Positions 9-63,919 of a stretch of DNA of 64,000 nucleotides are shown piece after piece (position 1 is the stretch's first letter; every line of letters starts with the position of its first letter). Under the pieces are notes generated by a model. The model made no database searches and was not told the origin of the DNA. It saw only the letters and a program-made list of their open reading frames with translations. The DNA is from Helicobacter macacae MIT 99-5501. GTDB taxonomy: Bacteria; Campylobacterota; Campylobacteria; Campylobacterales; Helicobacteraceae. The DNA is taken from contig NZ_KI669455.1 of the NCBI RefSeq assembly GCF_000507845.1, forward strand, positions 315,441 to 379,440, written 5' to 3'. The position numbers and the translations under genes were made by a program.

Positions 9-488
9 ATGAATTTAGCAGACATCAAACGGCTTATTGAAATATTCAACAACAGCCAAATAGCAAAACTAAGCCTAAGAGAAGATAATTTTGAGCTAAA
101 GCTTGACAAAAGCTACGCTCCCACTGCTCCAGCTACACCCGCCACACTTCCTCCACTTCCTAGCACACCACTTGCCCAAGATGCTTCCACAAGCACAGCA
201 AGTGCTACACCCACCCCAAGCGCACCCACACCGCCCGCTACAAAGAGCGGAGATTTTATCACTTCGCCTATGGTTGGGACATTTTATCATCGTCCTAGCC
301 CAGAGGCTGCTCCTTATGTCGCTGTGGGCGATACCGTCAAAAAGGGACAAACTATCGGCATAATCGAAGCAATGAAAATAATGAATGAAATCGAAGCAGA
401 ATTTGACTGCAAAATCTTAAGCATAGAGACTGATGATGGGCAGCCTGTGGAATACGGTAGCAATCTCATAAAAGTGGAAAAACTCTAA
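9..488 (+). CDS. accB: Biotin carboxyl carrier protein of acetyl-CoA carboxylase
   Basis: AccB carries the biotin that shuttles carboxyl groups in acetyl-CoA carboxylase, the first step of fatty acid synthesis in the cytoplasm. The protein is 159 residues. A charged N-terminal region is followed by an Ala/Pro/Thr-rich linker (about residues 38-80) and a C-terminal biotinyl domain with the motif EAMKIMNEIEAEF; the Lys of EAMKI (about residue 123) is the expected biotinylation site. I start at the ATG at 9 because the family begins MNL.., rather than the TTG one codon earlier; the ribosome-binding site lies outside the window. accC follows with no gap, so the two are co-transcribed and co-translated, the usual arrangement. 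Confidence is high. Confidence 0.95.
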   Translation: MNLADIKRLIEIFNNSQIAKLSLREDNFELKLDKSYAPTAPATPATLPPLPSTPLAQDASTSTASATPTPSAPTPPATKSGDFITSPMVGTFYHRPSPEAAPYVAVGDTVKKGQTIGIIEAMKIMNEIEAEFDCKILSIETDDGQPVEYGSNLIKVEKL

Positions 489-1937
489 ATGAAGCCAGCA
501 AAGCAAGCCAACACTTTGGCAAATAACCAAGACAGCGCAAAATCCCCAAAATCAAACGCCACAAAAGCACAAGGCGCAAAATCACAGCCAAAGCCAAAAA
601 AACTAGAGCGCATTCTCATAGCCAATCGTGGCGAAATCGCCCTGCGAGCCATTCGCACGATTCAAGAGATGGGCAAGCAGGCAATAGCTATCTATTCTAC
701 TGCGGATAAAGACACTCACTATCTTGATGTTGCCGATGTCAAAATCTGCATAGGTGGGGCAAAATCTAGTGAGAGCTACCTAAATATCCCTGCGATTATG
801 AGCACAGCTTCTTTAGTCGATGCGGACGCGATTTTCCCGGGGTATGGATTTTTGAGTGAAAATCAGCATTTTGTGGAGATTTGCGCTCATCACGGCGTAG
901 AGTTCATAGGACCAAGTAGCGATGTAATGGTGCTAATGAGCGATAAATCCAAAGCAAAAGATGTGATGAAAGACGCGGGTGTGCCTGTCATAGAGGGGAG
1001 TGATGGCGCACTCAAAGACTACAACCAAGCCTACGAAGTCGCCAAAAAAATCGGCTACCCTGTAATCCTAAAAGCCGCTGCAGGTGGTGGTGGACGCGGT
1101 ATGCGTATCGTAGAAGATGAAAGCCTACTAAAAAACCTCTACCTTGCCGCAGAGAGTGAGGCTTTAAGCGCGTTTGGAGATGGCACGATTTATATGGAAA
1201 AATTCATAAACAAACCCAAGCACATTGAAGTGCAGATTCTCGCTGATAAACACGGCAATGTGCTTCACATAGGTGAGCGCGACTGCTCTGCCCAGCGCAG
1301 ACAGCAAAAGCTAATCGAAGAGACTCCAGCTGTTGTTCTTAGCCAAGAAGTGAGGGCAAACCTCCTAAAAACCGCTGTCAAAGCCGCCAAACATATCGGC
1401 TATGTGGGAGCCGGGACATTTGAGTTTTTGCTAGATTCCAACAACAAAGATTTTTTCTTTATGGAGATGAATACCCGCTTGCAAGTAGAGCATACAGTTA
1501 GTGAAATGGTAAGCGGACTTGACTTGGTAGAATGGATGATACGCATAGCAGAGGGCGATAAGCTACCTAGCCAAGATGAGATAGAGTTCAAAGGACACAG
1601 CATAGAGTGCAGAATCACAGCAGAAGACCCTGTGAAATTCTACCCAAGTGCAGGCAAAATCACGCAGTGGATAACGCCCGGTGGCGCAAATGTGCGACTT
1701 GATAGCCACGCGTATGCAGGATATGTCGTGCCTATGTTTTATGACTCGATGATTGGCAAGCTAATCGTGTGGGGCGAGGATAGAAACAAAGCCATTGCCA
1801 AAATGAAGCGTGCGCTAAAAGAGTTTAAAATTGAGGGAATCAAAAGCACGATTCCATTTCACATAAAAATGATGAGCAATGCAGATTTCCTAAAATCCAA
1901 AATCCACACCAAATACCTAGAGCAGGATATGGAATAG
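489..1937 (+). CDS. accC: Biotin carboxylase subunit of acetyl-CoA carboxylase, with N-terminal extension
   Basis: AccC uses ATP and bicarbonate to carboxylate the biotin on AccB. The 482-residue protein has the biotin carboxylase N-domain starting at LERILIANRGEIALRAI (about residue 39), a glycine-rich ATP-grasp loop (AAAGGGGRGMRIV) and the MEMNTRLQVEHTV signature containing catalytic residues. Length is above the usual ~450 because of a Lys/Ala/Ser/Gln-rich extension of about 38 residues before the conserved start; the family normally begins right at LERIL. The ATG at 489 directly abuts the accB stop, which favours the long form through translational coupling, and no good internal ATG lies near residue 38. 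The extension is one of several low-complexity additions seen in this window. Confidence 0.95.
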   Translation: MKPAKQANTLANNQDSAKSPKSNATKAQGAKSQPKPKKLERILIANRGEIALRAIRTIQEMGKQAIAIYSTADKDTHYLDVADVKICIGGAKSSESYLNIPAIMSTASLVDADAIFPGYGFLSENQHFVEICAHHGVEFIGPSSDVMVLMSDKSKAKDVMKDAGVPVIEGSDGALKDYNQAYEVAKKIGYPVILKAAAGGGGRGMRIVEDESLLKNLYLAAESEALSAFGDGTIYMEKFINKPKHIEVQILADKHGNVLHIGERDCSAQRRQQKLIEETPAVVLSQEVRANLLKTAVKAAKHIGYVGAGTFEFLLDSNNKDFFFMEMNTRLQVEHTVSEMVSGLDLVEWMIRIAEGDKLPSQDEIEFKGHSIECRITAEDPVKFYPSAGKITQWITPGGANVRLDSHAYAGYVVPMFYDSMIGKLIVWGEDRNKAIAKMKRALKEFKIEGIKSTIPFHIKMMSNADFLKSKIHTKYLEQDME

Positions 1938-2103
1938 TCTTTGCAAAAAGCCAAAAAAGCAAAAATCTAAAAATCTGTGTTGATTTTTGGTGAGGATTTG
2001 CCTAATGTTTTAGGAGTTTTATAAGAGGATTTTAGATTTGTGATATAGATTTTGCTAGACTTTTTAAGCAAAATTTAGTCAAAATCCACAAAAGAGATAG
2101 CAA

Positions 2104-2862
2104 ATGCAGATAGATTCTAAACTAAAGCCACTACATATAAATGATGAAAAAAAAGCCACGCCCAAGTCAAAAGACACTGCCAAAAATAATGACAATATAG
2201 ACACGGCTAAAGAGATACCTCCTAGCCACCTACTATCAGCAGAATCGATAAAAACTAAGCCCACCCCACTGCAAAAGCTAGATTCCCTCCAAAATCCAAG
2301 CAACACTCCAAGCCACAACCTAAACGCTATAAACACCGCTCTAGGCGAACTAGAAGTGATGACAAAGTCCCTAAACACCCTCCAAAAGCACCAAAAAGTC
2401 TATGAAAAGCTCGCTCTAAAGCTAGACCAAGCCACAGAGGAGCAAGATGATGAAGCTATGCAGGCTATTGAGCAAGAAGCCCAAAAAGTCTATGAAAAAA
2501 TGCAAGAAGCCTACAATCTCGCAAACTTTGGTGGCAAAAATGTCTTTGAAAAAACCTATACAAACCTCGTCCCAGAAGTCGCTATCTCGGGCAAAAAGGT
2601 AAATCCAAACACGCTAGAAATCAAAAATAGCGATGCCGTGATAGAATACGCTAGCTTGCTAAAAGAGCAAAAAGCACAAGTAAAAACCGCACGCAAAATC
2701 CTCTACAAACGCGCACAAAGTGAAATGGACGAGCTAGCAAAAACCGATAAAAGCTATGAGAAGCTAAATAGAGATATGTTGCTAAGCGAGGAGTTCAAAG
2801 CCGCGCAGGGTGGCAGAGGTATCCGTGCCGAGCGAGTGCTACAACTGCTAAATTTACACTAG
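2104..2862 (+). CDS. Hypothetical helical protein
   Basis: A 252-residue soluble protein without signal peptide or membrane segment. Residues 1-75 are polar, low-complexity and probably disordered. From about residue 78 it is predicted mostly helical (heptad-like stretches such as LEVMTKSLNTLQKHQKVYEKL), with a central FGGKNVFEKTYTNLVPE segment that recalls the turn regions of flagellin-type helical proteins. On that impression alone it could be a flagellar export co-chaperone or flagellin-related protein, but I do not recognise the family and assign no function. It lies alone between accC and rsmH, in the same direction, with a 166-base gap upstream that contains no recognisable sigma-54 site. 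Confidence 0.75.
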   Translation: MQIDSKLKPLHINDEKKATPKSKDTAKNNDNIDTAKEIPPSHLLSAESIKTKPTPLQKLDSLQNPSNTPSHNLNAINTALGELEVMTKSLNTLQKHQKVYEKLALKLDQATEEQDDEAMQAIEQEAQKVYEKMQEAYNLANFGGKNVFEKTYTNLVPEVAISGKKVNPNTLEIKNSDAVIEYASLLKEQKAQVKTARKILYKRAQSEMDELAKTDKSYEKLNRDMLLSEEFKAAQGGRGIRAERVLQLLNLH

Positions 2863-2960
2863 ATTTCACTTTTTAGACTTGTTGATTTTATAACTGCACA
2901 TTTTTCTTGCCCCTCCCCAAAAAAAAAAGAAAAACAAATAATTACAAGATAAGGATTTTT

Positions 2961-3929
2961 ATGCAAAAACATATCCCTGTTTTGTTGCGCGAAGTGCTTG
3001 ATATATTTGCGCCTGTATGCGTAGCAAATGCAAATAACAATCCCGTGATAATTGATTGCACTTTGGGGCTAGGAGGGCATACCCTAGAATTTTTAAGAGA
3101 ATTTCCCTCTTTAGAAATCATCGCCATAGATAAAGACACGCAAGCCATAGACATAGCCACAGCTTATGCCAAAGAAGCGGGACTAAGCCAAAAGCTTCAC
3201 ACCATAAACGCGCCTTTTTCGCTTGGGATTGAGAGGGCGTTTGGGTTAGCAAAATCGCTAGATAGACGCATAGTAGGGGTTTTGGCAGATATAGGGGTTA
3301 GCTCTATGCAGCTAGATAGTAGCGAGCGTGGGTTTGGGTTTGGCTCTCACGCACTTGATATGCGTATGGATTTGGCTCAAAGCAAGGACGCAAAATATGT
3401 GATAAACACATATAGTGAGTTTGAGCTAGGGCGTGTATTGCGCGAGTATGGCGAGATAAAAGAGTATAAAAAGCTAGCCAAGTCTATCAAAGCGCGTATA
3501 AAATCTAGTGGGGATTTTGAAAGTGCGAGGGAGTTTAGCGAGTTTTTGCGCTCACATAGCAACCACAAAGGAGGCAAAATCCACCCAGCTACACTTGCAT
3601 TTCAAGCGGTGCGAATGGAGGTAAATAACGAGCTAGATGAGCTAAAAAACGCACTCTTTGTGCTAGAAAATCAAAGCAATGCTATGCGTGGCGCGAGGGT
3701 AGGGATTATCAGCTTTCACTCACTTGAGGATAGGATAGTCAAAGAGACTTTTAGGCAGTGGGCTAGGCCGTGTGTGTGTGAAGCAAGCGTGATGAAATGC
3801 GTATGTGGTGGGGATAATGCTAAAGGAGAGATTCTGACCAAAAAGCCACTCATAGCCAGCGAAAAAGAAATAAACTCAAATCCCCGCTCACGCAGTGCCA
3901 AACTGCGAGCATTTGCGTTTAGGCAATAA
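2961..3929 (+). CDS. rsmH: 16S rRNA (cytosine(1402)-N(4))-methyltransferase
   Basis: RsmH (MraW) methylates N4 of C1402 in 16S rRNA in the ribosomal P site, using S-adenosylmethionine. The 322-residue protein starts HIPVLLREVL, has the SAM-binding motif DCTLGLGGHTLEFL, the family segment DIGVSSMQLDSSERGFGF and the GRxGIISFHSLEDRIVKETF-like block near the C-terminus. I choose the ATG at 2961 (preceded by an AAGGA about 8 bases upstream) rather than an in-frame start at 2907, because the extra residues (PLPKKKRKTNN..) come from the A10 tract and are not part of the family. The gene stands alone here, away from a cell-division cluster. Confidence 0.95.
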   Translation: MQKHIPVLLREVLDIFAPVCVANANNNPVIIDCTLGLGGHTLEFLREFPSLEIIAIDKDTQAIDIATAYAKEAGLSQKLHTINAPFSLGIERAFGLAKSLDRRIVGVLADIGVSSMQLDSSERGFGFGSHALDMRMDLAQSKDAKYVINTYSEFELGRVLREYGEIKEYKKLAKSIKARIKSSGDFESAREFSEFLRSHSNHKGGKIHPATLAFQAVRMEVNNELDELKNALFVLENQSNAMRGARVGIISFHSLEDRIVKETFRQWARPCVCEASVMKCVCGGDNAKGEILTKKPLIASEKEINSNPRSRSAKLRAFAFRQ

Positions 3930-4101
3930 ACATTTAAGTATTGCTAGTAATGAGATTTCCTAATTTAGCTAGAAAACCTTATAAAATAGCCCAAAATAAT
4001 AATATTTAGATTTTGCCTTTATCGCAAATAAGCTATCTCACATTTAAAAACATAATAAATTTGCATCGCTAATGACTAGCACAAAATCTTTTTACATAAG
4101 G

Positions 4102-4127
4102 CTATGAGAATTTTAAGATTCTCATAG
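4102..4127. terminator. Hairpin between convergent genes
   Basis: A perfect 10-base-pair stem (CTATGAGAAT / ATTCTCATAG) with a 6-base loop sits between convergent rsmH and the TonB receptor gene, 35 bases from the receptor stop. There is no clean T-run on either side, so it is a weak candidate for a bidirectional terminator or mRNA 3' end. Confidence 0.4.
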
Positions 4128-4161
4128 CAGATAGCATTAGATGAAAAGCGTGGGATTTACA

Positions 4162-7002
4162 CTAAAAATCATACTGCAAGGAAATATAATATCTCCTGCC
4201 CTCGCGGATATAGTTATAGTGGTTTGCCCAAGTCAATGTCATCCCAGCATTGCCACCCATATAGCTTTGATAATCCACAAAATTACGATTAAGCAAGTTA
4301 TACACTGCAAAGGTTATGCGCAGATTCTCCGTAGGCTTGCCATACACGCCTAAATGCGTGAGATATATCGGCTTATAGTATTCGCCAAGTGTGGCTGCAG
4401 CGGTATTTGGCGTGTTTGGATTGCCGCGATAGAGATGCGTTTTTACCTCCTGTCTTATGTATGCACCGAAGTATTTACTATCATAGTTTAGGCTCGCATT
4501 CACACTATGAAGCGGGACATTAGTAAGTCGTTGGTCTGTGCTCCCTGTCGCGCCAGCTGCGGTGCGAGAAATGTAGGTGTGATTAAATGTGTAAGCCCCA
4601 TTTAGACTTATCTCGCCATACCCCACCTCAATAGGTCTAAGTCCTAGTGCCACTTCCGCACCATAGGATTTCGCCTCGCCCAAGTTTGCGTAATATGAGC
4701 AGGTGTAGTTCCCTGTCGCACCACAAATTTGCCCCGTAGTGCCTACCACCGTGCCTTGCGCAAATCCTCCAACGCTCGTGATTCTGTCTTTAAAATCTGT
4801 GTAAAATCCCGTAACGCTTAGATTAAAAAAGTCATTATCAGTGAGTAGAGAAAGCTCATAGGTTACGCTTGTTTGTGGAGTAAGGTTTGGATTCCCATAG
4901 GTTGGCTGTGCTCCAGAGGCAGAAAAGCTCACAATCCCATTTACAAGCTGATTAAGTGCGGGGGATTTATAGCCTGTGCTTACACCGCCCTTTAGCGTAA
5001 GCCAGCCATCAATAATATTATAAGCAATATAGGCGCGAGGAGAGAAATTGCTCCCAAAAATGGAGTTAAAATTCCCTCGCCCACCAAGTGTCAAAAACAC
5101 GCGATTAAAGAGCGCGAACTCGCCTTCAGCATACACCGCACCGATATGTTGCTCTTTTAGAGAGCTTGCACCTTGCGCGACTACTGCTAGGAGATTATCA
5201 TTAAATGTGTTATACCAATAGCGCGCACCTACACCCAGATTAAGCCCGACATTTCGCCCGAAGTTAAAAAACATTTTGCTTTTGTGCTCGGCAATCACAT
5301 CTTGCGCACGCAAGTCCCTATCATCGCCCGCACTTACGCCATTAAAAGGACCTGTGGCAAGCGTGCCATTGGGGACACTTGTATTTTGTGGCACAGTGCG
5401 CCCGTCATTTTCTGTGAGATTATACTGCACGGTATTATCCATTTTATAGGATTCAAAAATCCCTCCCTCATTACGATAGTAATTCCCCTGATGAGAGAGA
5501 ATCGCATTTGCCTGATAAATGTTGTAGTTTGTATCATAGCCATTGTTTCTCCTTAGATTTTCCGCAGGATTACCCGGACGCCAGCCTTGCGACCAGTTTG
5601 AGAGCAGCAGTCCATCAGAGTTATCAAAAAGCTGTGCGCCATAGTTTAAATCCAAATACACGCTATCTCGAGGAGAACTCCCCACAGATTCTAGAGAGTT
5701 CCACTGCAAGCGTCCGCCGATATTATACATTTGACCGGGCGCAATCCCCACAAGCGTGCTAGCTTGCGCACTATTTGCGCTCAAATGCGGCAAAACAAGA
5801 TTTTGCAAAGGCACGCCAAACCTCGCGTATTGAGAGCCTCTCAAAGTAAGCCCCCAATTTTTTGCGCTATTTAGCGGACCTGCAGTGTAGAAATTAAAGC
5901 CTTGTTGATGTCCAAATCGCTTTTCCTCTTGCAAAGTGGTGTTTAGTTGCAAGCTCGCACCCCATTTATCAAAACTTTTCTTAGTGATGATATTTACCAC
6001 ACCACCCATAGCATCGCTTCCATAGAGCGTGCTAGCAGGACCGCGTATGACTTCGATTCGCTCAATAGCACTCATCGGCGGGATAAAGTAATTTACCGCG
6101 CTTCCAAAGCCATTGGGGAAAAGCGCGTCTCCGCCTGTGCTGGAGCGCTTGCCATCAATGAGGGTAAGCACATCGGTGCTACCGCGAATAGAGATATTAT
6201 ACCCGCTTGTCTTTGAGACACCGCTATCTATGGACACCCCGGGCACATACTGTATCGCCTCGCCCAAATCCCGCACAGGACGGCTCATCACTTCTTTTGG
6301 GCTTACTGTGCTGATACTCGCTGGTGCTAGCGTGTAGTCTTGCTCAAACCCACCTGCGGTTACGACAACTTTTTGCAACTGCTTTGCTTCTAGGGTGTCG
6401 TATTGTTTGTCGTGCTTTATGAGTTTGTCATATCGCTTAGAGTTTTGGTGCTGTGAGCTTTGGTGTTGTGAGGATTTTTGTGAAGTGGTGCTTTGGCTAG
6501 AACCTACGCTAGAGCTAGAATCCGCATTAGAATTTGAATCTAAGCTAGAATCTTTATTAGATTCTGCACTAGATTCTTGGCTAGGGTTTGAGTTAGATTC
6601 TTTGCTAGATTCCAAACTAGAATCTTTAGTAGAATTTGCTCCTACTTCATTTAGTGATAATCGCATTTTTGTTTCCCCTGCTTTTATGGAGGATTGTATT
6701 TTTCCCTTTTCTAGCGCGGAGGAATCCACTTTTATTCCCCCTCCCTGTGCGGAGGAATCTATCTTTGTCCCCCCTCCCTGTGCGGAGGGGGCTAGGGGGT
6801 GGGTAGAATTTAAAGCAGAATCTTTAGCAGTTTGTTGCGCGGGAGTTACTCTCTCTCTCTCTCTCTCGTTATCAGCTAGAGCGAGGGAAGTAGCTAGGCT
6901 AAGGCTTAGTGTGAATGCAAATGCTTTGCTAGAGATTCTCTTTTCTCTAGACTTTCCTCTAGTCTTGCTAGGATTTTGGATTGGTAATGTTACTTCGTTC
7001 AT
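4162..7002 (-). CDS. TonB-dependent outer-membrane receptor with repeat-rich N-terminus
   Basis: A 946-residue outer-membrane receptor of the siderophore/colicin I type, importing an iron complex or similar ligand with energy from TonB. Residues 1-43 form a long signal peptide (cleavage probably after LALA). Residues 45-205 are low-complexity Ser/Asn/Gln-rich and unusual for the family; they include the ERERER run encoded by a (CT)9 repeat and SAQGGG units derived from a palindromic element. The TonB box (QKVVVTA) and plug begin near residue 210, with the plug motif IRGPASTLYGSDAMGG, then a 22-strand-type barrel ending in YYISLQYDF with the terminal Phe expected for BAM insertion. AGGAG precedes the ATG. 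A promoter with a Fur-box-like AT-rich element lies upstream, so iron control is plausible. The ligand cannot be told from sequence. Confidence 0.92.
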   Translation of the reverse strand: MNEVTLPIQNPSKTRGKSREKRISSKAFAFTLSLSLATSLALADNERERERVTPAQQTAKDSALNSTHPLAPSAQGGGTKIDSSAQGGGIKVDSSALEKGKIQSSIKAGETKMRLSLNEVGANSTKDSSLESSKESNSNPSQESSAESNKDSSLDSNSNADSSSSVGSSQSTTSQKSSQHQSSQHQNSKRYDKLIKHDKQYDTLEAKQLQKVVVTAGGFEQDYTLAPASISTVSPKEVMSRPVRDLGEAIQYVPGVSIDSGVSKTSGYNISIRGSTDVLTLIDGKRSSTGGDALFPNGFGSAVNYFIPPMSAIERIEVIRGPASTLYGSDAMGGVVNIITKKSFDKWGASLQLNTTLQEEKRFGHQQGFNFYTAGPLNSAKNWGLTLRGSQYARFGVPLQNLVLPHLSANSAQASTLVGIAPGQMYNIGGRLQWNSLESVGSSPRDSVYLDLNYGAQLFDNSDGLLLSNWSQGWRPGNPAENLRRNNGYDTNYNIYQANAILSHQGNYYRNEGGIFESYKMDNTVQYNLTENDGRTVPQNTSVPNGTLATGPFNGVSAGDDRDLRAQDVIAEHKSKMFFNFGRNVGLNLGVGARYWYNTFNDNLLAVVAQGASSLKEQHIGAVYAEGEFALFNRVFLTLGGRGNFNSIFGSNFSPRAYIAYNIIDGWLTLKGGVSTGYKSPALNQLVNGIVSFSASGAQPTYGNPNLTPQTSVTYELSLLTDNDFFNLSVTGFYTDFKDRITSVGGFAQGTVVGTTGQICGATGNYTCSYYANLGEAKSYGAEVALGLRPIEVGYGEISLNGAYTFNHTYISRTAAGATGSTDQRLTNVPLHSVNASLNYDSKYFGAYIRQEVKTHLYRGNPNTPNTAAATLGEYYKPIYLTHLGVYGKPTENLRITFAVYNLLNRNFVDYQSYMGGNAGMTLTWANHYNYIREGRRYYISLQYDF
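6716..6781. repeat. 33-base tandem duplication inside the receptor gene
   Basis: Two adjacent copies of a 33-base unit beginning GCGGAGGAATC (6716-6748 and 6749-6781) encode an 11-residue repeat SSAQGGG[T/I]K[I/V]D. The unit contains the left half of the G/C-rich palindromic element that follows directly at 6770-6805, so it looks like a duplicated part of that element. 33 is a multiple of three, so copy-number change would keep the frame. Confidence 0.8.
6770..6805. repeat. G/C-rich palindromic element, in-frame copy in TonB receptor
   Basis: A 36-base element starting CCCCCTCCCTGTGCGGAGGG and ending GGGGGTGGGTA. It matches, with a few changes, intergenic copies at 63269-63304 and 63615-63650. 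It is read in frame as part of the region before the plug (protein segment THPLAPSAQGGG). Confidence 0.8.
6849..6867. repeat. (CT)9 dinucleotide repeat in the receptor coding region
   Basis: Nine CT units plus a C, read as (GA)n on the coding strand, encode the ERERER run just after the signal peptide of the TonB receptor. Nine units keep the reading frame open; gain or loss of one unit would shift the frame and end translation early. This is the typical layout of a phase-variable contingency locus. Confidence 0.8.
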
Positions 7003-9100: not shown

Positions 9101-9694
9101 CTACTTTTTCCACACAATATGCCCATTGATATTGTGCTTTTCATACACTTCAAGCACTTCTTTTAGAAAGGCAACTAGCCCTTTATCATCATTTTCCTTT
9201 GCCGTTTCAAGCATTTGTATAAACATTTTCTTGCCCGTTTCGGTTTGCTTTAAATTTTTCTTTAAAAAATTATGCCTAGCACACAGCGTTTGCTCATTTT
9301 GCAAAGTCGCTTTACCGCCCAAATCTTTTGGCTTTATGTGGTCTATATGTAGCTCCACGCCCTCTTTTTTACCAAGCCCACAAATCACGCATTTGTAATT
9401 ATCCCTCTCTAAAATCTGCTTTTTCAAAGCGGAGCTAAAATCCTCCAAATCCTCCCTTAAATGCACCATTTCAGGCTCATAGCGATACACACCTTTGGCG
9501 ATTTTTTGCAAATACCCTTTTTGGTGCAAACTCCTTATGCCTCTATCAGGGTCGCGAAACACCTTACCCGTTCGTTTTTGCCACTCATTTGTTACCCAAT
9601 CCACAACTTCAGGGTGCGAAATGTCGCGCTTAGGATTTGCCTTAAAAAATTCCATTATCAAATCAAGCTGTGAAATGTGCTTTTTATCACTCAT
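9101..9694 (-). CDS. HNH-family restriction endonuclease (type II)
   Basis: A 197-residue nuclease. Residues 1-75 form a winged-helix-like domain (DISHPEVVDWV..RDPDRGIRSLHQKGYLQKIAKGVYRY), and residues 100-142 an HNH/beta-beta-alpha-metal domain: zinc-binding CVIC (102-105), HIDH (116-119) and N133 with C138 and H141. This layout is found in several type II enzymes that pair with beta-class methyltransferases. The upstream methyltransferase gene overlaps it by one base (TAATG), so the pair is translationally coupled and forms one restriction-modification system. Target sequence cannot be predicted. A solitary homing-type HNH protein is less likely because of the coupling. Confidence 0.85.
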   Translation of the reverse strand: MSDKKHISQLDLIMEFFKANPKRDISHPEVVDWVTNEWQKRTGKVFRDPDRGIRSLHQKGYLQKIAKGVYRYEPEMVHLREDLEDFSSALKKQILERDNYKCVICGLGKKEGVELHIDHIKPKDLGGKATLQNEQTLCARHNFLKKNLKQTETGKKMFIQMLETAKENDDKGLVAFLKEVLEVYEKHNINGHIVWKK

Positions 9695-10578
9695 TAAAAC
9701 AATCCTTTTTCTTTTTGAATCGTTTGCAAAAAGCGATTTTTGGCAAGTTCGCAGTAGCTTTTGTCTATCTCGATTCCTACAAATGCGCGTTTGTTGAGGT
9801 AGCTTTCTATCATAGTTGTGCCAGAGCCACTAAATGGGTCGCAAATGACATCACCTACAAAAGAAAAAAGCTTTATACACCGCTTTGGTAGTTCGCGTGG
9901 GAAAGGCGCGGGGTGTCCTACGCGTTTTTTGGATTCGCCATTAAAACTCCAAAGTCCATTTGTCCAAGCCATAAACTCATCTTTGTTTATATCGCTTATG
10001 CCTTTTTGGGATTTTTTCCACTCGCCTTTATAAAGCACGAGGATTAGCTCCACAGGCGCGATGACATAAGGTGCAGACGCGCTAAGCCAACTCCCCCAAG
10101 CCGTGCGGCGCGAGATATTGCCCTCATTCCACACGATTGTGCTGTGGTATTTCCACCCGATTTTTTTGGCAAGATTTGTCAAATCCGCGCCCACGCTTTG
10201 CTGTCCGCCTTTGTTTTTATCAAGCGGGATATTAAGGCAAAATCTACCACCATCTTTTGCCCAAAGATAACAATTTTTAAGCCATTTTTCACAAAAAGCC
10301 AAATAAACCTCATACTCGCCCCTATCGTCATTTGAGTTATATTCTATACCGACATTATAGGGTGGGGAAGTGATAATTAAATCAAGGCTTTGCGGAACTA
10401 AAAGTGAGCGTCTAAGCACAGAACTCTCATACAGAGCGATATTTTTGTGGTTAAAAAATGGCGTTAGTTTCTGTGGCTTTGTTTTTTTTAAATTCGTTGA
10501 TTTTATTTTTTTTGCAACCACTACCGAATCTGTGCTAGATTCGATAACATTGCTATTTGTGTGTGAAACCAAAGTCAT
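9694..10578 (-). CDS. DNA methyltransferase, beta class (N4-cytosine or N6-adenine)
   Basis: This 294-residue enzyme modifies the site cut by the adjacent HNH nuclease, using S-adenosylmethionine. Motif IV TSPPYNVG is at residues 70-77 and the SAM-binding motif I (DPFSGSGTT) at 247-255, giving the beta-class order (IV, target recognition region, I). TSPPY is commoner in N4-cytosine enzymes than N6-adenine ones, but the base cannot be settled here. An N-terminal stretch of about 45 residues is Lys/Thr/Ser-rich and precedes the conserved part (NIALYESSVLRRSLL). It is the first gene of the pair; the nuclease follows with a one-base overlap, an order that lets modification precede restriction. 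Confidence 0.9.
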   Translation of the reverse strand: MTLVSHTNSNVIESSTDSVVVAKKIKSTNLKKTKPQKLTPFFNHKNIALYESSVLRRSLLVPQSLDLIITSPPYNVGIEYNSNDDRGEYEVYLAFCEKWLKNCYLWAKDGGRFCLNIPLDKNKGGQQSVGADLTNLAKKIGWKYHSTIVWNEGNISRRTAWGSWLSASAPYVIAPVELILVLYKGEWKKSQKGISDINKDEFMAWTNGLWSFNGESKKRVGHPAPFPRELPKRCIKLFSFVGDVICDPFSGSGTTMIESYLNKRAFVGIEIDKSYCELAKNRFLQTIQKEKGLF

Positions 10579-10684
10579 TTACGCCCTTTTAGATATTTTG
10601 CGTAATTATACTAGATTTCCCTATATTTGTTTTTGTCAAATGACTAAATCCCTTTTGTCGCCACTTTAGCAAAATCTATTTATT

Positions 10685-12007
10685 CTAAGCATTTAGCGCG
10701 ATTTTTTGTGTGGCATTTGTGTGCTTTGATTTTGTATTTAGTCTATGTTGCCCTTGCTTATAAACCTCCCTAAATTCACTGCCAAGCAGGCAATTCTCCA
10801 AACTGCGCTGTGAAAATAAAAACCGCCCATCGCAGACAAATCCTAGCTCCTCCCAATCCACATTATTTAGCATTTCACACAGCTTTTGCAAATCTGCCAA
10901 ATCCACCTTAAAGCGCGGGAAAACCGCTAGCACAGAGCCATCATAAGCCTTGCAATGGTGCAAGAAAAAGGGCTTTTTATTGCGCGTTTTAGCATTTACA
11001 TAGATTCGCGCTTCATCGCTTTTGTGGTAGTCGCGCCCCCATTCCCACCAATTATTTTCATCAAATTTTTTGATTTTGCGCTTCAAAAGCTGCGGTTTAA
11101 AGCCTTGCAAATACGCGCTATCTTTGCCAAATTCGCCATAAATCATCTTTTTTGTTTTGCCACTTTTTGCGCTGTGGGAGCACACAAACTCCACATTGCC
11201 AAACTCATCATTTGCATAGATTTTATCCGCACCACTCACCGCGCCCACCTTGACAAAAAATAGCGCGTTAAATGGAATTGTGTAGCGATTTTTAGTTAGC
11301 ATTAGCTGTCCATTGACACAGCTAAAATTACGCGCTAGATTTACTTTGCGCGAAAAGTCGCCCTTCTCAAACCGCCAAATCACACAATTTGGCTGTGCTT
11401 TATCAAAAATCCTTTTGTCCCCCAGCTCAACAAAGTCCGTGATACTGCCTTGTGCGAAAAGAAACTCATTTAGTTTCACACTCGCCGTGCTTTTTAAGAA
11501 ATCGCGTGGCGTGATGAAAATAAGCTCACCGTGCTCTTTTAGGTGCAACACGCATTTGTAAATAAAAAAGAGATAGAGATTGGTTCGCATATCAAATATC
11601 GCGCTAAATGGCTTTAGCAGGGCTTTTGTCGAATCAAGTATGTCTTGGTAGCGCACATAAGGCGGATTGCCGATAATGGTGTCAAATTTCTCACTCACGG
11701 GGTAGCTAAAAAAGTCTATGTTTAAGAGTTTATTTTGCGTTTTAAAATCTAGATTCGCGACTTGCTTAAGCGCGTTTGTGTCAATCTCTATGCCGACTTT
11801 GTTGCTTGGCAGATTTTGCCAAAACGCCCCATTGCCACAGCTTGGCTCTAAAAATCGCGGATTTTGCTCGCGCTTCACGCTTCGCACAAGACTAAGCATA
11901 TCGCTAACGATATGTTGCGGGGTAAAAACCTGCCCTAAATGCGTAATGTCAAGCTCTAAATCACGATTCACAAAAATACCTTTTGTATGATAGATATGCG
12001 TCTGCAC
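10685..12007 (-). CDS. DNA adenine-N6 methyltransferase, gamma class (TaqI-like)
   Basis: A 440-residue methyltransferase. Motif I is LEPSCGNGAFW (53-63), motif IV is IIGNPPYVRY (111-120), giving gamma-class order; NPPY indicates N6-adenine methylation. The HLGQVFTPQHIVSDML segment before motif I is typical of Eco57I/TaqI-like enzymes. The C-terminal half should hold the target-recognition domain. The ATG at 12007 lies inside the end of the upstream nuclease gene, giving a 47-base overlap; a GTG within the first 15 codons (VNRDLELD) is an alternative start that would shorten the overlap. It pairs with that nuclease as a second restriction-modification system, 106 bases from the first. Confidence 0.9.
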   Translation of the reverse strand: MQTHIYHTKGIFVNRDLELDITHLGQVFTPQHIVSDMLSLVRSVKREQNPRFLEPSCGNGAFWQNLPSNKVGIEIDTNALKQVANLDFKTQNKLLNIDFFSYPVSEKFDTIIGNPPYVRYQDILDSTKALLKPFSAIFDMRTNLYLFFIYKCVLHLKEHGELIFITPRDFLKSTASVKLNEFLFAQGSITDFVELGDKRIFDKAQPNCVIWRFEKGDFSRKVNLARNFSCVNGQLMLTKNRYTIPFNALFFVKVGAVSGADKIYANDEFGNVEFVCSHSAKSGKTKKMIYGEFGKDSAYLQGFKPQLLKRKIKKFDENNWWEWGRDYHKSDEARIYVNAKTRNKKPFFLHHCKAYDGSVLAVFPRFKVDLADLQKLCEMLNNVDWEELGFVCDGRFLFSQRSLENCLLGSEFREVYKQGQHRLNTKSKHTNATQKIALNA

Positions 12008-36609: not shown

Positions 36610-39600
36610 CTAAAAAGCATAGCGAAATCCCACGCTTCCCTTTGTGCCATAGTATCTGCGAGTATCGCCATTTATATGGATTGCGTATTCTATGTTTAGA
36701 CGCTCTTTTATGGTGTGTGAGCCGATGAAGTAGCCTTGCACTTCAAAGGCGTTGTTATTTACCACAAAATCTAGCATCGTGCTAGCGTTTGCAAAGCTTA
36801 CTTGTGCTTTTGCTTGAGAATGTAGCTTTTGCACTCCTACAAGCCCAAGTGTATAAAATCCATTTTTGCCAAAAATCACATACTCTAGCCCCGCACCGAT
36901 ATGAGCAAACATATCGTCAAATCCACCACCGCGAAACTCCGCTCCACGCCAATCACTAGCCTTGCTAATCCCTAGTCCAATCGTGCCTAGTGGCTTTAGG
37001 ATATTTCCATCTATAAGTGTGATATTGTATTTATAATAATTACTCCAAAATCCCCCAAATACCGAGCTTTTGATATTATCACCAAATGCACTTGATTCTA
37101 GTGAGCTATATGCAAAAGATAGGCTTGATTGGAATTCACTTTTGCCAAAATGCGTATGCAAATATGCGCCACCACCAGCGATGATTCCGCTTTGCTTGGA
37201 CTTTTTTTGAAGCAAATGTGAGCCACCAAAGCTAGCCATTACGCCCAAAAGTGTGCTACCAACTATCCTATCATATCCCACGCTAGAGCCATAAAATGCT
37301 AGATTTAGTCCCAAAGTGCCCGCATATCCACCAAGTGCGCTAGCCCACGCGCTATTTTGGTAAGGATTTAGGCTAAGTGTGGGAGGTGATTTTGGTGCTA
37401 CTCCTAGCAGCAAAGATATGTCATCATAGTCGCTTTGTGGGGTATTTGGGCTTGTGTAAGCGGTGGCTTTTGTGGAGTTTGCGCTTGAGTATGACAAAGC
37501 AGAGGCAAGCCTTAATTTTTGCAGATTTTGTGGCTTTTGTGTGGCTAGATTTTGCGTTTTTGAGCGCACTTGTAAAATCCGCATCTTAATGCTTAAATCA
37601 TTGTTTTGCAAAATCGCGCTTAGGTTTTCCCCACTTGATTGTGTGGCAATCTCACGCATAGCCTCCTCATAGCTTGCTAGGGTGGATTCTAGCGCGGAGT
37701 ATTCCTCTGTGCTAGCAGCTTTGTCGATATTTTCATCATTTGGATTATGCTCTGTGAGGGCTAGAAGTGTCTTAGTGTGTGTGCTAGAAATATGCTTGCT
37801 TAGCTCGGCAAAGCTACGGGGATTTGATTCCAAAAATTTCACAAGTAGCTTATTTTCATAAAATTTACTTACGACAAAAAGTGGCGTTGCGCCTTGAGCG
37901 AAGCGAAAATCTATGCGTTTATCAGCCCTATTATCACTCACACTTCCCGCACTTATAAGTGTGAAATATTTATCTAGCGTTATGTTATTTGCACCCTTTT
38001 TTACACTATCATCAAACGCCACACTTATGCTTGAATTTTCCCCAAGAGTTAGATTTTGATTTTTGAAAGTTAGGGTTTCAAATCTATCGTTACTATTTAG
38101 ACTTGCACCGACTTTGCTAAGCAAAAGCGTGCCACTTATCGTGGTGTTTGATTGGATATTTTTAGGCGCGGTGTTTGGGCTTTGGGTATAGGCTAGATTT
38201 GCAAAATCTATGCGAGATTTTTCATCACTTTTGAAGTTTGTAGCATTCCCAAAATCCCACGAATTGATAGCTAGATTTGCACCATTGCTTAAAGTAATAT
38301 TTGCTAGATTTTCCGCGCTTGCTCTATGGTTTGCAAAATCTAGCGTAAGATTTGTGTTTTCTACATTTAGATTTTTTACTTCTAGTTTTGAATCATTATC
38401 AAGGCTAAGTGTCGCATTGTGCCAAAAAGTCAAATCTGTCGTTTTTATTGTGCTAGATTTTAGCTTGATATTCCTGCCGATTAGATTTCCTACTAGATTT
38501 GTAGTGCTACTATCAAAGATAAATTCTCCAACATTTGCCACCCCACCGTTTTGTTGTAGCGTAAGATTTGATACGCTTTTTGCTGTGATTGTATCAGCAC
38601 TAAGTCTTGCACTATCGCTTATAGAAATCAAATTATGCGTAGAATCAAGCGTGATATTTTCTGCTACAAGGTTTGCACTACCACTTAAATCCACACTTGC
38701 AGTGATATTATCTAGCAAACTCTCTACCTTACTTGTGCCACTTGCTGTGATTTTGCCACTAAATGTCGGATTTGGCGTAGTTTGAGTAGATTTATCCTCT
38801 GGCACAAAGCCAAATAGCGTGATTATTGTTTGCTTATCGCTCGTGCTACTTGCATTTATGTCAAATTCTTTGCTTCCACCTATATAAATATCTATTGTTG
38901 AATCTACCCCTTTAAGTTGTGTTTTGTTGGCATTTGCTGTGTTTTTAATCTCTGCCTTACTATCAAGTAAAAAAGTGCCATTTGCTACGCTATTAAATTC
39001 AATCATCGGCGTATCAAGTATGCTATTATCCCACAATGACAAACCTGCCTCTATCAAGCCATTAGTATCGCCAACTTTTAAGCTATCATTTATTTTTAGC
39101 TGTGCTATGCTATTTTCAGCACCCTGCAAATATATTTTATTTTTAATCGTTGAATCATCTATCTTTTTTAGCGTAAGGCTTTTTAGGCTTAGATTCCCAC
39201 CCTCTAGCCAAACATTTGCGCTTAATGTGCTATTCGTGCCCGTAATGCTAGATTTAACACCCACAATATCGTAATTTACACTTTTATCAATATGCGCCAA
39301 ATCTAATTTGCTTAAATCAAAACTACTTACATCATAAAAACGAAATGATTTTTCTACCTTAAGTTTTTCGCCACTGCTAGAGTTTTGAAAGATTTGGGAT
39401 ATATCACTCACATTTTTTAAAATAAGATTTTGTATCGTTGCACTTGCACCACTTGCTAATGAAACCGAATCTTTATCGCTCAAAGTCAAATATTCTGCCC
39501 TAAGTTTTGCATTATTTTTCAAATCCAAACTCGCATTAAAATCCAAAATGCTTGAATTTATCGTGCCACCATTTGCACTAATCTTGCCGCGATAGCTTAT

Positions 39601-41967
39601 CGTGTGATTTGCGATTTTTTCTTGCTCTGTGCCGATACTCCCACTCTCTACCCTTTGCTGATAGGTAAAGCCATTACCTATGACATTTTTGCTATCCAAA
39701 TTATCAACAAAATGCAAGACACCACCACCAAATACCACGCTAGAGCTAGAATCTAGCGAAATGCTAGATTCTAGGCTCACATTTCGTCCGAGCGTGAGAT
39801 TTGAATTTGCTAGATTGATTCCGCTGCCAAATATAAAACTGCGATTATCCCAATCAGGCTGCTCTAAGTGTGAGGGCTTGCTTAAATCCATATAGCTAGG
39901 CATTCCCTTTTGAGTGCCATTCTCGGCATTTTCCACTTGGCTACGGATTTTGTCATTGCTAATGGTAGCGTGAGTAGTGGCGTGCCCTTGAAGTGCTACA
40001 TTGCCGTTAGTTATAGTCATTTTACCCTGTGTGTTGATATTACCATCAAAGATTAGATATGCTTCCTCCCTTAGCACGAGGGGTGTTTGGGGGAGGGTAG
40101 ATTTCGCGTTTTTAGGATTTGACCCACCCCCTCTATCCCCCTCCGCAAGGAAGGGGGAATTTGTCGCACTTCTATCCCCACTATACACAATGTCGATATT
40201 TGTTTGGTTTGCTTGACTTGTAGAATCAGCTTTGCCCACACTTGCGTGGATTATGGTATTTTCTTTTGTGGCAGTTTTGTTGCCATTTGTATCATACCCA
40301 AAGCCCTCAATCTCAACCGTTGCCTTTGCGCTAGAATTTGTGATAATCGCACCACTATCATTTGCCACAATCGTGTTTAGCACAAGGCTATTGCCCACCA
40401 AATCAAGTTTCCCACCACCTATGCCAAAATAAAAGCCCATATTTGTGTTTTTATCCTGCGATAGTGTGTATGATTTTGCACCCGTTTGTGTTACATTGAC
40501 ATTGTTGCTATTTTTTGTCGCGCCAAGTGCTTCTGCTTGGATAAGTGAGAGTTCTCCCCTCCCGCTAGTGATGTAGATATTTTCATAAGCCTTTTTGCTT
40601 GTATCTAGGCTTACCTTGCCCTCGCCGATTTTAAGTGTGCCTAGATTTTCGCCCTCTTTTGTTGGTGTATAGTTGGTTTTGATGATAAGTTCGCCTTTGC
40701 CTATTTTGTGTAGCGAGTCGCCACTAGCATTGCGCAAAGCCCACTCTACGCGGACATTTTTGCCTATGTCAAGCCCCGAGCCTTTGAAGTAGTGATTTTC
40801 GCCGTTTTTGTTTTCAAATTTGTAAGTTATCTCATTTGCAGAATCTCTAAATACAAATCCCCCAGCATAGCCACTTTGTGTTCTATCAATGTCTTTTTCT
40901 ACTTGGATTGTCCCACCACTGCCAAAGATTATGTCTTTGTTGCCTTGTAGTGTCTTGCTTGATAGTGAGTTATCCTCCAAATCATTGCCCCTAAGCGTCC
41001 AAACTCTGCCTTGCAAATCAATTTCTTGCTCAAAATGTCTTTGATAATCTCTAAAATCTTTGTTTGAAGCAACTGATATTGCGCCATTATCCCTTGAGAC
41101 AACGCCAAGTAAAATCCATTTGCTGTTTTTATCATCATACACATAGATTCCACTACCGCTATCGCCCGAAGTGATTTGATTATAAAACCCACTCATCGGC
41201 TTATAATAAAACCCTATCCCAGCATTATAATAATCCGCCCCACCAAAAGTCCCAAATCCACCACCGCGCATTTCCCCACTACTATTTGTGTTGAAACTTT
41301 GTATATTGCTCGTTCCTCGTAGCGTTACAATCCCACTACCTGCTTGATAGAGATAAATATCGCCACTGCTATCTCCAAAATCATCTAATTGCTTTTTGAA
41401 ATTTTCTAAATTTTTTGCTTCATTAGAATTGCTTGTTTTCGTATTGTCAATATCTAGCATTTGTGCTTGCCCCTCAACGACATATTTACTAAGTCGCAAA
41501 AACTTTGTATCCCAGCCATAAAGTTTGGAAGTGCCACCTATTTCGCCATCACTACTTTCCACAGATTGCTTTGCAATGCTATATTTTGTAACCCCCCAAT
41601 CTAGCAATCCATCTGCACTTTCAGGACTGCTTACGTGATTTGCTGTCGCGACAAATCCTCTCCCCACAGAAGTCAAAGAGCCATAATTGCTAGAAGCAGA
41701 AAAGTTTGGAATGTGTGGAATACTAAGTTTTGAGCTATCTTTGCCTAGAAATTCTAAGCCTTTTTTACTGCTTCCACCACTATTGGCACTTCCACCATTT
41801 GCATTTGCGCTACTTGCACCCTCTTTGAAAGCCCCCTTATTTTGCCCAAAATCCAAAAAATCCCTATAATAAAAATCGCTAATATTTATGCTTTGAGCGT
41901 GTGCAAAAAGCGCAAAAATAGCAAAAAGATTTAAAAAGCACAAAATCTTAAGTGTATTTTTGTGCAT
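36610..41967 (-). CDS. Autotransporter with S6-family serine protease passenger
   Basis: A 1785-residue type Va autotransporter. Residues 1-24 are a signal peptide (LFAIFALFAHA). The passenger starts with an S6 (IgA-protease/SPATE-like) domain: DFYYRDFLDFGQNKGAF, the likely catalytic His in VATANHV (H111), Asp in GWDTKFLRLSKYVVE (D153), and GDSGSGIYVY with Ser270. From about 330 to 1480 it is a repetitive beta-helix stalk rich in Asn/Ser/Gly (SSSVVFGGGVLHF-type turns). The last ~280 residues form the beta-barrel (SAWASALGGYAGTLGLNLAFYG..), ending VGFRYAF. A palindromic G/C-rich element lies in frame around residues 603-617. The protease should be secreted and may cut host proteins; the substrate is unknown. 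Unlike classical SPATEs it has a long stalk and Helicobacter-type barrel. Confidence 0.9.
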   Translation of the reverse strand: MHKNTLKILCFLNLFAIFALFAHAQSINISDFYYRDFLDFGQNKGAFKEGASSANANGGSANSGGSSKKGLEFLGKDSSKLSIPHIPNFSASSNYGSLTSVGRGFVATANHVSSPESADGLLDWGVTKYSIAKQSVESSDGEIGGTSKLYGWDTKFLRLSKYVVEGQAQMLDIDNTKTSNSNEAKNLENFKKQLDDFGDSSGDIYLYQAGSGIVTLRGTSNIQSFNTNSSGEMRGGGFGTFGGADYYNAGIGFYYKPMSGFYNQITSGDSGSGIYVYDDKNSKWILLGVVSRDNGAISVASNKDFRDYQRHFEQEIDLQGRVWTLRGNDLEDNSLSSKTLQGNKDIIFGSGGTIQVEKDIDRTQSGYAGGFVFRDSANEITYKFENKNGENHYFKGSGLDIGKNVRVEWALRNASGDSLHKIGKGELIIKTNYTPTKEGENLGTLKIGEGKVSLDTSKKAYENIYITSGRGELSLIQAEALGATKNSNNVNVTQTGAKSYTLSQDKNTNMGFYFGIGGGKLDLVGNSLVLNTIVANDSGAIITNSSAKATVEIEGFGYDTNGNKTATKENTIIHASVGKADSTSQANQTNIDIVYSGDRSATNSPFLAEGDRGGGSNPKNAKSTLPQTPLVLREEAYLIFDGNINTQGKMTITNGNVALQGHATTHATISNDKIRSQVENAENGTQKGMPSYMDLSKPSHLEQPDWDNRSFIFGSGINLANSNLTLGRNVSLESSISLDSSSSVVFGGGVLHFVDNLDSKNVIGNGFTYQQRVESGSIGTEQEKIANHTISYRGKISANGGTINSSILDFNASLDLKNNAKLRAEYLTLSDKDSVSLASGASATIQNLILKNVSDISQIFQNSSSGEKLKVEKSFRFYDVSSFDLSKLDLAHIDKSVNYDIVGVKSSITGTNSTLSANVWLEGGNLSLKSLTLKKIDDSTIKNKIYLQGAENSIAQLKINDSLKVGDTNGLIEAGLSLWDNSILDTPMIEFNSVANGTFLLDSKAEIKNTANANKTQLKGVDSTIDIYIGGSKEFDINASSTSDKQTIITLFGFVPEDKSTQTTPNPTFSGKITASGTSKVESLLDNITASVDLSGSANLVAENITLDSTHNLISISDSARLSADTITAKSVSNLTLQQNGGVANVGEFIFDSSTTNLVGNLIGRNIKLKSSTIKTTDLTFWHNATLSLDNDSKLEVKNLNVENTNLTLDFANHRASAENLANITLSNGANLAINSWDFGNATNFKSDEKSRIDFANLAYTQSPNTAPKNIQSNTTISGTLLLSKVGASLNSNDRFETLTFKNQNLTLGENSSISVAFDDSVKKGANNITLDKYFTLISAGSVSDNRADKRIDFRFAQGATPLFVVSKFYENKLLVKFLESNPRSFAELSKHISSTHTKTLLALTEHNPNDENIDKAASTEEYSALESTLASYEEAMREIATQSSGENLSAILQNNDLSIKMRILQVRSKTQNLATQKPQNLQKLRLASALSYSSANSTKATAYTSPNTPQSDYDDISLLLGVAPKSPPTLSLNPYQNSAWASALGGYAGTLGLNLAFYGSSVGYDRIVGSTLLGVMASFGGSHLLQKKSKQSGIIAGGGAYLHTHFGKSEFQSSLSFAYSSLESSAFGDNIKSSVFGGFWSNYYKYNITLIDGNILKPLGTIGLGISKASDWRGAEFRGGGFDDMFAHIGAGLEYVIFGKNGFYTLGLVGVQKLHSQAKAQVSFANASTMLDFVVNNNAFEVQGYFIGSHTIKERLNIEYAIHINGDTRRYYGTKGSVGFRYAF
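40122..40157. repeat. G/C-rich palindromic element, in-frame copy in the autotransporter
   Basis: A 36-base element reading ACCCACCCCCTCTATCCCCC.. on the plus strand and ending AAGGAAGGGGG, the inverse orientation of the copy at 6770-6805. It matches intergenic 63884-63919 with few changes. It encodes FLAEGDRGGGS in the passenger stalk. About 30 bases on, TTTGGGGGAGGGTAG (40087-40101) resembles the element's tail again in inverted orientation. Confidence 0.75.
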
Positions 41968-63167: not shown

Positions 63168-63268
63168 ATGTTTTAGTCAGTATGACAAGCTGATTTGGTT
63201 TGCTATTTCAAAACCCCCTCCCTTGAATCCATTTTTTTCAAAGTGAGGGTGTTTGGCTCTCTTAAAGC

Positions 63269-63304
63269 CCCCTCCCTCTGCGGAGGGGGTTTGGGGGTGG
63301 GTAA
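63269..63304. repeat. G/C-rich palindromic element (intergenic copy 1)
   Basis: 36 bases starting CCCCCTCCCTCTGCGGAGGG and ending TTTGGGGGTGGGTA; identical to the copy at 63615-63650. Confidence 0.85.
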
Positions 63305-63614: not shown

Positions 63615-63650
63615 CCCCCTCCCTCTGCGGAGGGGGTTTGGGGGTGGGTA
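63615..63650. repeat. G/C-rich palindromic element (intergenic copy 2)
   Basis: Identical over 36 bases to 63269-63304, same orientation. Confidence 0.85.
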
Positions 63651-63658
63651 TCATATTT

Positions 63659-63849: not shown

Positions 63850-63883
63850 TTGGAGAAAGCCCGCTTGCTCAATCTATGTAATA

Positions 63884-63919
63884 TACCCACCCCCTAACCC
63901 CCTCCGCAAGGGAGGGGGG
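63884..63919. repeat. G/C-rich palindromic element (intergenic copy 3, reverse)
   Basis: TACCCACCCCCTAACCCCCT followed by CCGCAAGGGAGGGGG; the reverse orientation of copies 1 and 2 and closest to the copy inside the autotransporter. Confidence 0.8.

Follow-up and report, generated by a model that had tools for sequence, protein, structure and literature searches.

Rickettsia palindromic elements (RPEs) are dispersed palindromes of about 150 bp, with many copies lying in frame within open reading frames (ORFs), as described in the relevant part of one report (PMC10969869). A CGTC at one end is reported for palindromes of this type in a second (PMC3733652), whose section on CGTC-type palindromes gives no known transposase for them. 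Here we describe a palindrome in a 64,000-nucleotide stretch of the Helicobacter macacae MIT 99-5501 genome (contig NZ_KI669455.1, positions 315,441 to 379,440; "the window" below, numbered from its first letter), one copy of which lies inside the gene of a TonB-dependent receptor, and its tie in other genomes to the nuclease-like domain DUF559. Like RPEs, this palindrome occurs at dispersed sites, some of them in frame inside ORFs, namely those of the receptor, an autotransporter and restriction-modification (R-M) proteins. It differs in length, being about 36 nt on its own or about 134 nt with an adjoining array, as against the roughly 150 bp given in that account of RPEs (PMC10969869). It also differs in lacking CGTC, by eye, at either end of the copies in the window; in occurring outside Rickettsia; in its shorter core; in its link to a nuclease gene; and in that the copies inside genes are mostly in R-M genes. 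An earlier note, made from the sequence alone, had proposed the RPE analogy: it holds for the in-frame insertion behaviour and is not supported for family membership, on grounds of length and the missing CGTC end.

That a palindrome lies in frame in the receptor gene is confirmed. The gene (4162..7002, minus strand) is a 946-residue ORF with Pfam matches to Plug (residues 226-335) and to the beta-barrel (445-903). A terminal palindrome, supported by its exact core and by repeat pairs I3 and D4, occupies 6770..6805 on the plus strand, where a hairpin (6770-6791), CCCCCTCCCTGTGCGGAGGGGG, carries a G-rich tail. The receptor ORF is uninterrupted through the insert, the minus strand encoding THPLAPSAQGGG...SSAQGGG. 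Because the insert covers residues 66-110, approximately, and so precedes Plug, it is pre-plug; ORF and Pfam positions thus agree with the earlier description of SAQGGG units open in frame in that region. Exact copies of the core, CCCCCTCCCT[C/G]TGCGGAGGGGG, stand at 6770-6791, 63268-63289 and 63615-63636, and one with three mismatches stands at 6737-6758. Dinucleotide shuffling placed this similarity above chance, with no match to the exact 22-nt core across 100 shuffles. The 36-base element of the intergenic DNA at 63.3, 63.6 and 63.9 kb does, as proposed, also lie within the receptor ORF.

The first of these intergenic copies (63268..63303, plus strand) lies among small ORFs only. The other two form an inward-facing pair (pair I2), with the left half, which has the exact core, at 63615..63651 on the plus strand and the inverted right half at 63883/63884..63919 on the minus strand, the arms being 231 nt apart and 86% complementary. 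The ORFs listed around the 63 kb copies are of 60-102 residues, plus the end of one 379-residue ORF and nothing else, and no Rfam match was found to 62.9-64.0 kb. Between 63310 and 63860, GTCATTGCGAG-type repeats alternate with the palindromes; we take these repeats to resemble CGTC-tagged repetitive extragenic palindromes (REPs). A reading of the palindromes as terminators was set aside, no terminator scan having been made, because R-M ORFs translate copies in frame and in both orientations.

Upstream of the receptor palindrome lies an array (6672..6788, plus strand) made up of a degenerate unit followed by GCGGAG-type motifs spaced 30, 33 and 33 nt apart; its last unit overlaps the receptor hairpin. 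Tandem Repeats Finder reports a 33-nt unit repeated 2.2 times at 6716-6788, which confirms the 33-base tandem described earlier. Because of the 30, 33, 33 motif spacing, however, the array begins further out than 6716, near 6672 by eye. Nor do the data support the earlier view of the tandem as a local partial duplication, because copies in other Helicobacteraceae (G037, G074 and G117) are preceded by equal spacing.

An N-terminus of the protein's own can be seen in three of the seven closest receptor homologues (P0002-P0008), namely P0003, P0005 and P0007, and all three lack the segment; P0005 says little on this point because its N-terminus is unrelated. The other four begin downstream of the segment and are uninformative. 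Just past the signal-peptide region of the receptor, a (CT)9.5 tract at 6849-6867 reads RERERER; the ERERE stretch is kept in P0003 and P0007, and P0002 and P0008 begin downstream. The tract and its pattern in homologues would fit phase variation. Also near the receptor, at 9101-12007, are an HNH endonuclease ORF and two DNA methyltransferase ORFs, where the hairpin detector described below found no palindrome.

The window holds a second in-gene site, overlooked in the earlier note. An autotransporter gene (36610..41967, minus strand; a 1785-residue ORF with Peptidase_S6 and beta-solenoid Pfam matches) carries a decayed, inward-facing palindrome pair at 40065-40158, and its ORF is open. The left half (40065..40099, plus strand), in frame in the gene, was recognized by eye and missed by the detector; the right half (40122..40158, minus strand), 22 bp away, was identified by script (hairpin 40136-40158) and from its sequence.

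A 32-base pattern, allowing at most three mismatches, found 29 places in eight of 121 Helicobacteraceae genomes, and a reversed control pattern found none. A second, slightly different script pattern likewise gave 29 copies in eight genomes, partly different ones. By this second pattern, 16 of the 29 copies fall within ORFs that have R-M Pfam domains, four within other ORFs of at least 150 residues (one right where a terminase ORF begins) and nine outside ORFs of that length, R-M genes adjoining three of these last copies or pairs (L068, L072, L073). Together with the receptor and autotransporter sites, the 16 copies in R-M ORFs bear out the view that the palindromes lie in ORFs without breaking frame. 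One genome, G037, carries 12 copies, and two related Type ISP proteins (G037, G063) have inserts at differing positions by eye. No viral contig contained the exact core. In G088, one copy lies inside a 2430-residue ORF (L080, 2864-10156) that has both a PBECR and a ddrB-ParB domain. Another dispersed repeat, GTCATTCTGAGCG.AGCGAAGAATC, has 13, 2 and 2 copies in G037, G074 and G117; some of these are on palindrome contigs and are translated as CHSERSEESQ in the same R-M ORFs.

Two of the 121 Helicobacteraceae genomes carry DUF559 (E<=1e-8). Both are among the eight with palindromes, and in each the domain is part of the reading frame of an R-M gene and adjoins this palindrome. In G117 a palindrome>DUF559<palindrome pair lies inside a 1296-residue methyltransferase (L081); the DUF559 block of about 300 residues is absent from nine aligned homologues (of 120 listed), and P0121 and P0134 have short linkers in its place. 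The G037 copy terminates at a contig end. Two homologues without the block, P0124 and P0134, carry other repeat-like in-frame inserts near the C-terminus.

DUF559 occurs in five of 398 genomes of an order-level sample, G117 included. At loci L088-L093, palindromes were seen on at least one side in six of six cases by eye and in four of six by a strict hairpin detector. This detector scored hairpins within 170 bp of DUF559, with far windows as the control; it missed L091 and L092, where palindromes are seen by eye, and L159, and the counts were kept as scored. Strong Verrucomicrobiota-type loci had a hairpin in 10/10 cases (upstream in 10, downstream in 9; far windows 4/90). Weak PF04480 matches used as controls (L134-L144, the E-value gap to the strong matches running from 6e-28 to 3.5e-15) had none in 11 (far windows 0/98). 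With the detector unchanged, a hairpin was found at 15 of 18 named plasmid and phage loci (far windows 7/178), a sample that includes Deinococcus, Azospirillum, Synechocystis, E. coli and Neisseria, and at 14 of 17 further Verrucomicrobiota-type loci (both sides in 11; far windows 0/160). In naming samples after Verrucomicrobiota and Myxococcota we assume the placement of their orders. These data show that the palindromes are tied to DUF559, and they reveal the anatomy of the element, with its inward hairpin layout, in several phyla. In the literature searched, with subscription journals mostly outside it, we found no published link of DUF559 to palindromes or to in-frame R-M insertion.

Most Myxococcota-type DUF559 copies have different neighbors. 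Many of those at L098-L122 are preceded by other conserved repeats, such as GGCGGCGTGTCACAGATCGTGCGCC, and one genome of this type, G578, has 27 DUF559 matches. On Deinococcus plasmids (L146, L148, L150, L151), free-standing DUF559 with hairpins occupies differing points of the hpa/paa aromatic-degradation loci across species.

A Pfam scan of the 27 strong Verrucomicrobiota-type loci, which covered longer ORFs and not shorter ones, placed DUF559 in frame in HsdR (7) or HsdM (4) in 11 cases, nine of them with host sequence on both sides of the domain. Insertion sites are common to L125/L126, L128/L179 and L129/L163/L167 in HsdR and to L164/L165/L168 in HsdM, as placed by alignment for L125, L126, L128 and L129 and by eye for the others. 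In same-site pairs, the DUF559 domains are more alike than their hosts in four of eight and less alike in four of eight; repeated insertion is therefore favored at two sites, and inheritance is sufficient at two. Other in-frame hosts are R-M proteins (L088, L089, L090, L096) and a histidine kinase (L093). The R-M genes with in-frame DUF559 and palindromes have uninterrupted homologues.

Among the matches listed, the DUF559 fold is nearest to 3hrl, followed by the homing endonuclease I-Bth0305I and Vsr; two mitoribosomal proteins rank between, or close to, these last two. Six residues are invariant in 17 aligned DUF559 domains (E29, D58, E69, D71, H75 and D81), and these may correspond to the EDxHD motif. 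The pertinent portion of PMC9403480 assigns a DUF559 gene to EDxHD, a group treated also in part of PMC3943268; Caulobacter and Legionella DUF559 genes appear in sections of PMC12907096 and PMC12308824.

We favor the explanation, with a probability of about 0.62, that the receptor insert is a copy, lacking the nuclease, of a mobile element that in full consists of array, palindrome, DUF559 ORF and inverted palindrome. DUF559 would cut or nick a site that lacks the element, and either repair or palindrome pairing would copy the element into the resulting break, whether or not the nuclease gene comes with it. The scarcity of stop codons in the G/C-rich ends would help to preserve the frame, as would selection that purges copies breaking needed genes; the receptor copy would be tolerated because it sits between signal peptide and plug, with the array growing by whole codons. 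A broader proposal, to which we give even odds, is that DUF559 marks a widespread class of selfish palindrome-nuclease-palindrome element, which homes into host genes in frame and with no splicing device, R-M genes being a main home. Many bacterial solo G/C palindromes, those of the receptor and autotransporter included, would then descend from this class and have no nuclease, in the way that REPs derive from REP-associated tyrosine transposases (RAYTs).

Several points weigh against the nuclease-less-copy explanation. That the nuclease drives the movement is something we infer, and target-site duplication at the element junctions is not evident by eye, no DNA-level empty site having been compared. 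No DUF559 was seen within the window, and at the threshold used the domain is absent from six of the eight Helicobacteraceae genomes that carry palindromes. Myxococcota-type DUF559 loci have a hairpin in only 7/30 cases (30 of 67 places; far windows 0/260). The detector, like the division into strong and weak matches, was fixed after the flanks had been viewed, the independent checks being the 15/18 and 14/17 samples. Among the fusions, L179 ends inside DUF559, L174 is a rearranged HsdM without the methylase core and with no hairpin detected, and L173, a twelfth in-frame fusion, has a type II secretion protein and not an R-M protein as its host. Finally, inheritance is enough for the four same-site pairs whose hosts are the more alike.

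One alternative is possible and clearly less probable: the palindrome would resemble RPEs or miniature inverted-repeat transposable elements (MITEs) and be moved by another enzyme, with DUF559 as a passenger that uses or gathers palindromes. The six genomes without DUF559 favor it, as does the translation of the GTCATTCTGAGCG.AGCGAAGAATC repeat, which has no DUF559 link, in the same R-M ORFs; the tight clustering of hairpins beside DUF559 across phyla argues the other way. An IS200-type transposase (PF01797) was rejected as the mover: it is present in only two of the eight palindrome-bearing genomes and not in G037, despite its 12 copies; other transposase families were not searched.

We consider it improbable that cells maintain DUF559 as a functional nuclease domain of their R-M systems, for restriction or repair, and that the palindromes are no more than its recombination scars or regulatory ends. 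Many in-frame hosts are indeed R-M proteins, and a free Vsr-like Caulobacter DUF559 protein is tied to the SOS response in methyltransferase-lacking cells in the part of PMC12907096 concerned with it. Against this, the position of DUF559 varies among homologous HsdR proteins, even falling inside the SWI2/SNF2 motor, and other copies are free-standing in the Deinococcus catabolic loci or fused to the histidine kinase or type II secretion protein. That ordinary coding sequence of low complexity makes up the receptor segment, its likeness to the palindrome being due to chance, has a negligible probability: outside the insert, too, the pre-plug region is rich in Ser and in repeats, but the exact core was matched in none of the 100 shuffles, the array layout is common to other species, and the detector was silent in all 873 windows of 30 receptor loci (L009-L038, drawn from the 121 genomes searched, 56 of which had a receptor match).

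If our explanation is true, DUF559 would be the likely mobilizing enzyme for a common kind of G/C palindrome, which would provide a role for a Pfam family whose function is so far listed as unknown and extend in-frame gene invasion beyond Rickettsia. A nuclease partner for a kind related to the CGTC-type palindromes would make the question of their missing transposase, as posed in part of PMC3733652, testable. DUF559 inserts also mark natural domain-insertion sites in HsdR and HsdM.

Compared with other known systems, the palindromes share with REPs their small size, the presence of some copies in genes and the inverted pairs, which in the RAYT case flank an enzyme gene, according to the section of PMC3733652 on RAYTs. 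They differ in that, by eye, the hairpin foot of the window copies bears neither a GTAG nor a CGTC tag; GTAG follows the tail in one of the four (6803-6806), away from the foot. The linked enzyme, moreover, is here a Vsr-like nuclease. With MITEs they share short, non-autonomous copies next to a fuller form, but the gene linked to them is not a transposase. EDxHD homing endonucleases such as I-Bth0305I have a similar catalytic-domain fold and recurrent sites in conserved host genes; the inserts described here differ in being open in frame with the host, in their palindromic ends and in their one small domain, and no intron or intein was recognized at them, no search having been aimed at these. 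The same-site DUF559 insertions may point to site-specific cleavage of element-free alleles, as a suggestion only. Starting from the RPE analogy, the finding leads further, to a family of palindromes linked to a nuclease of the homing type.
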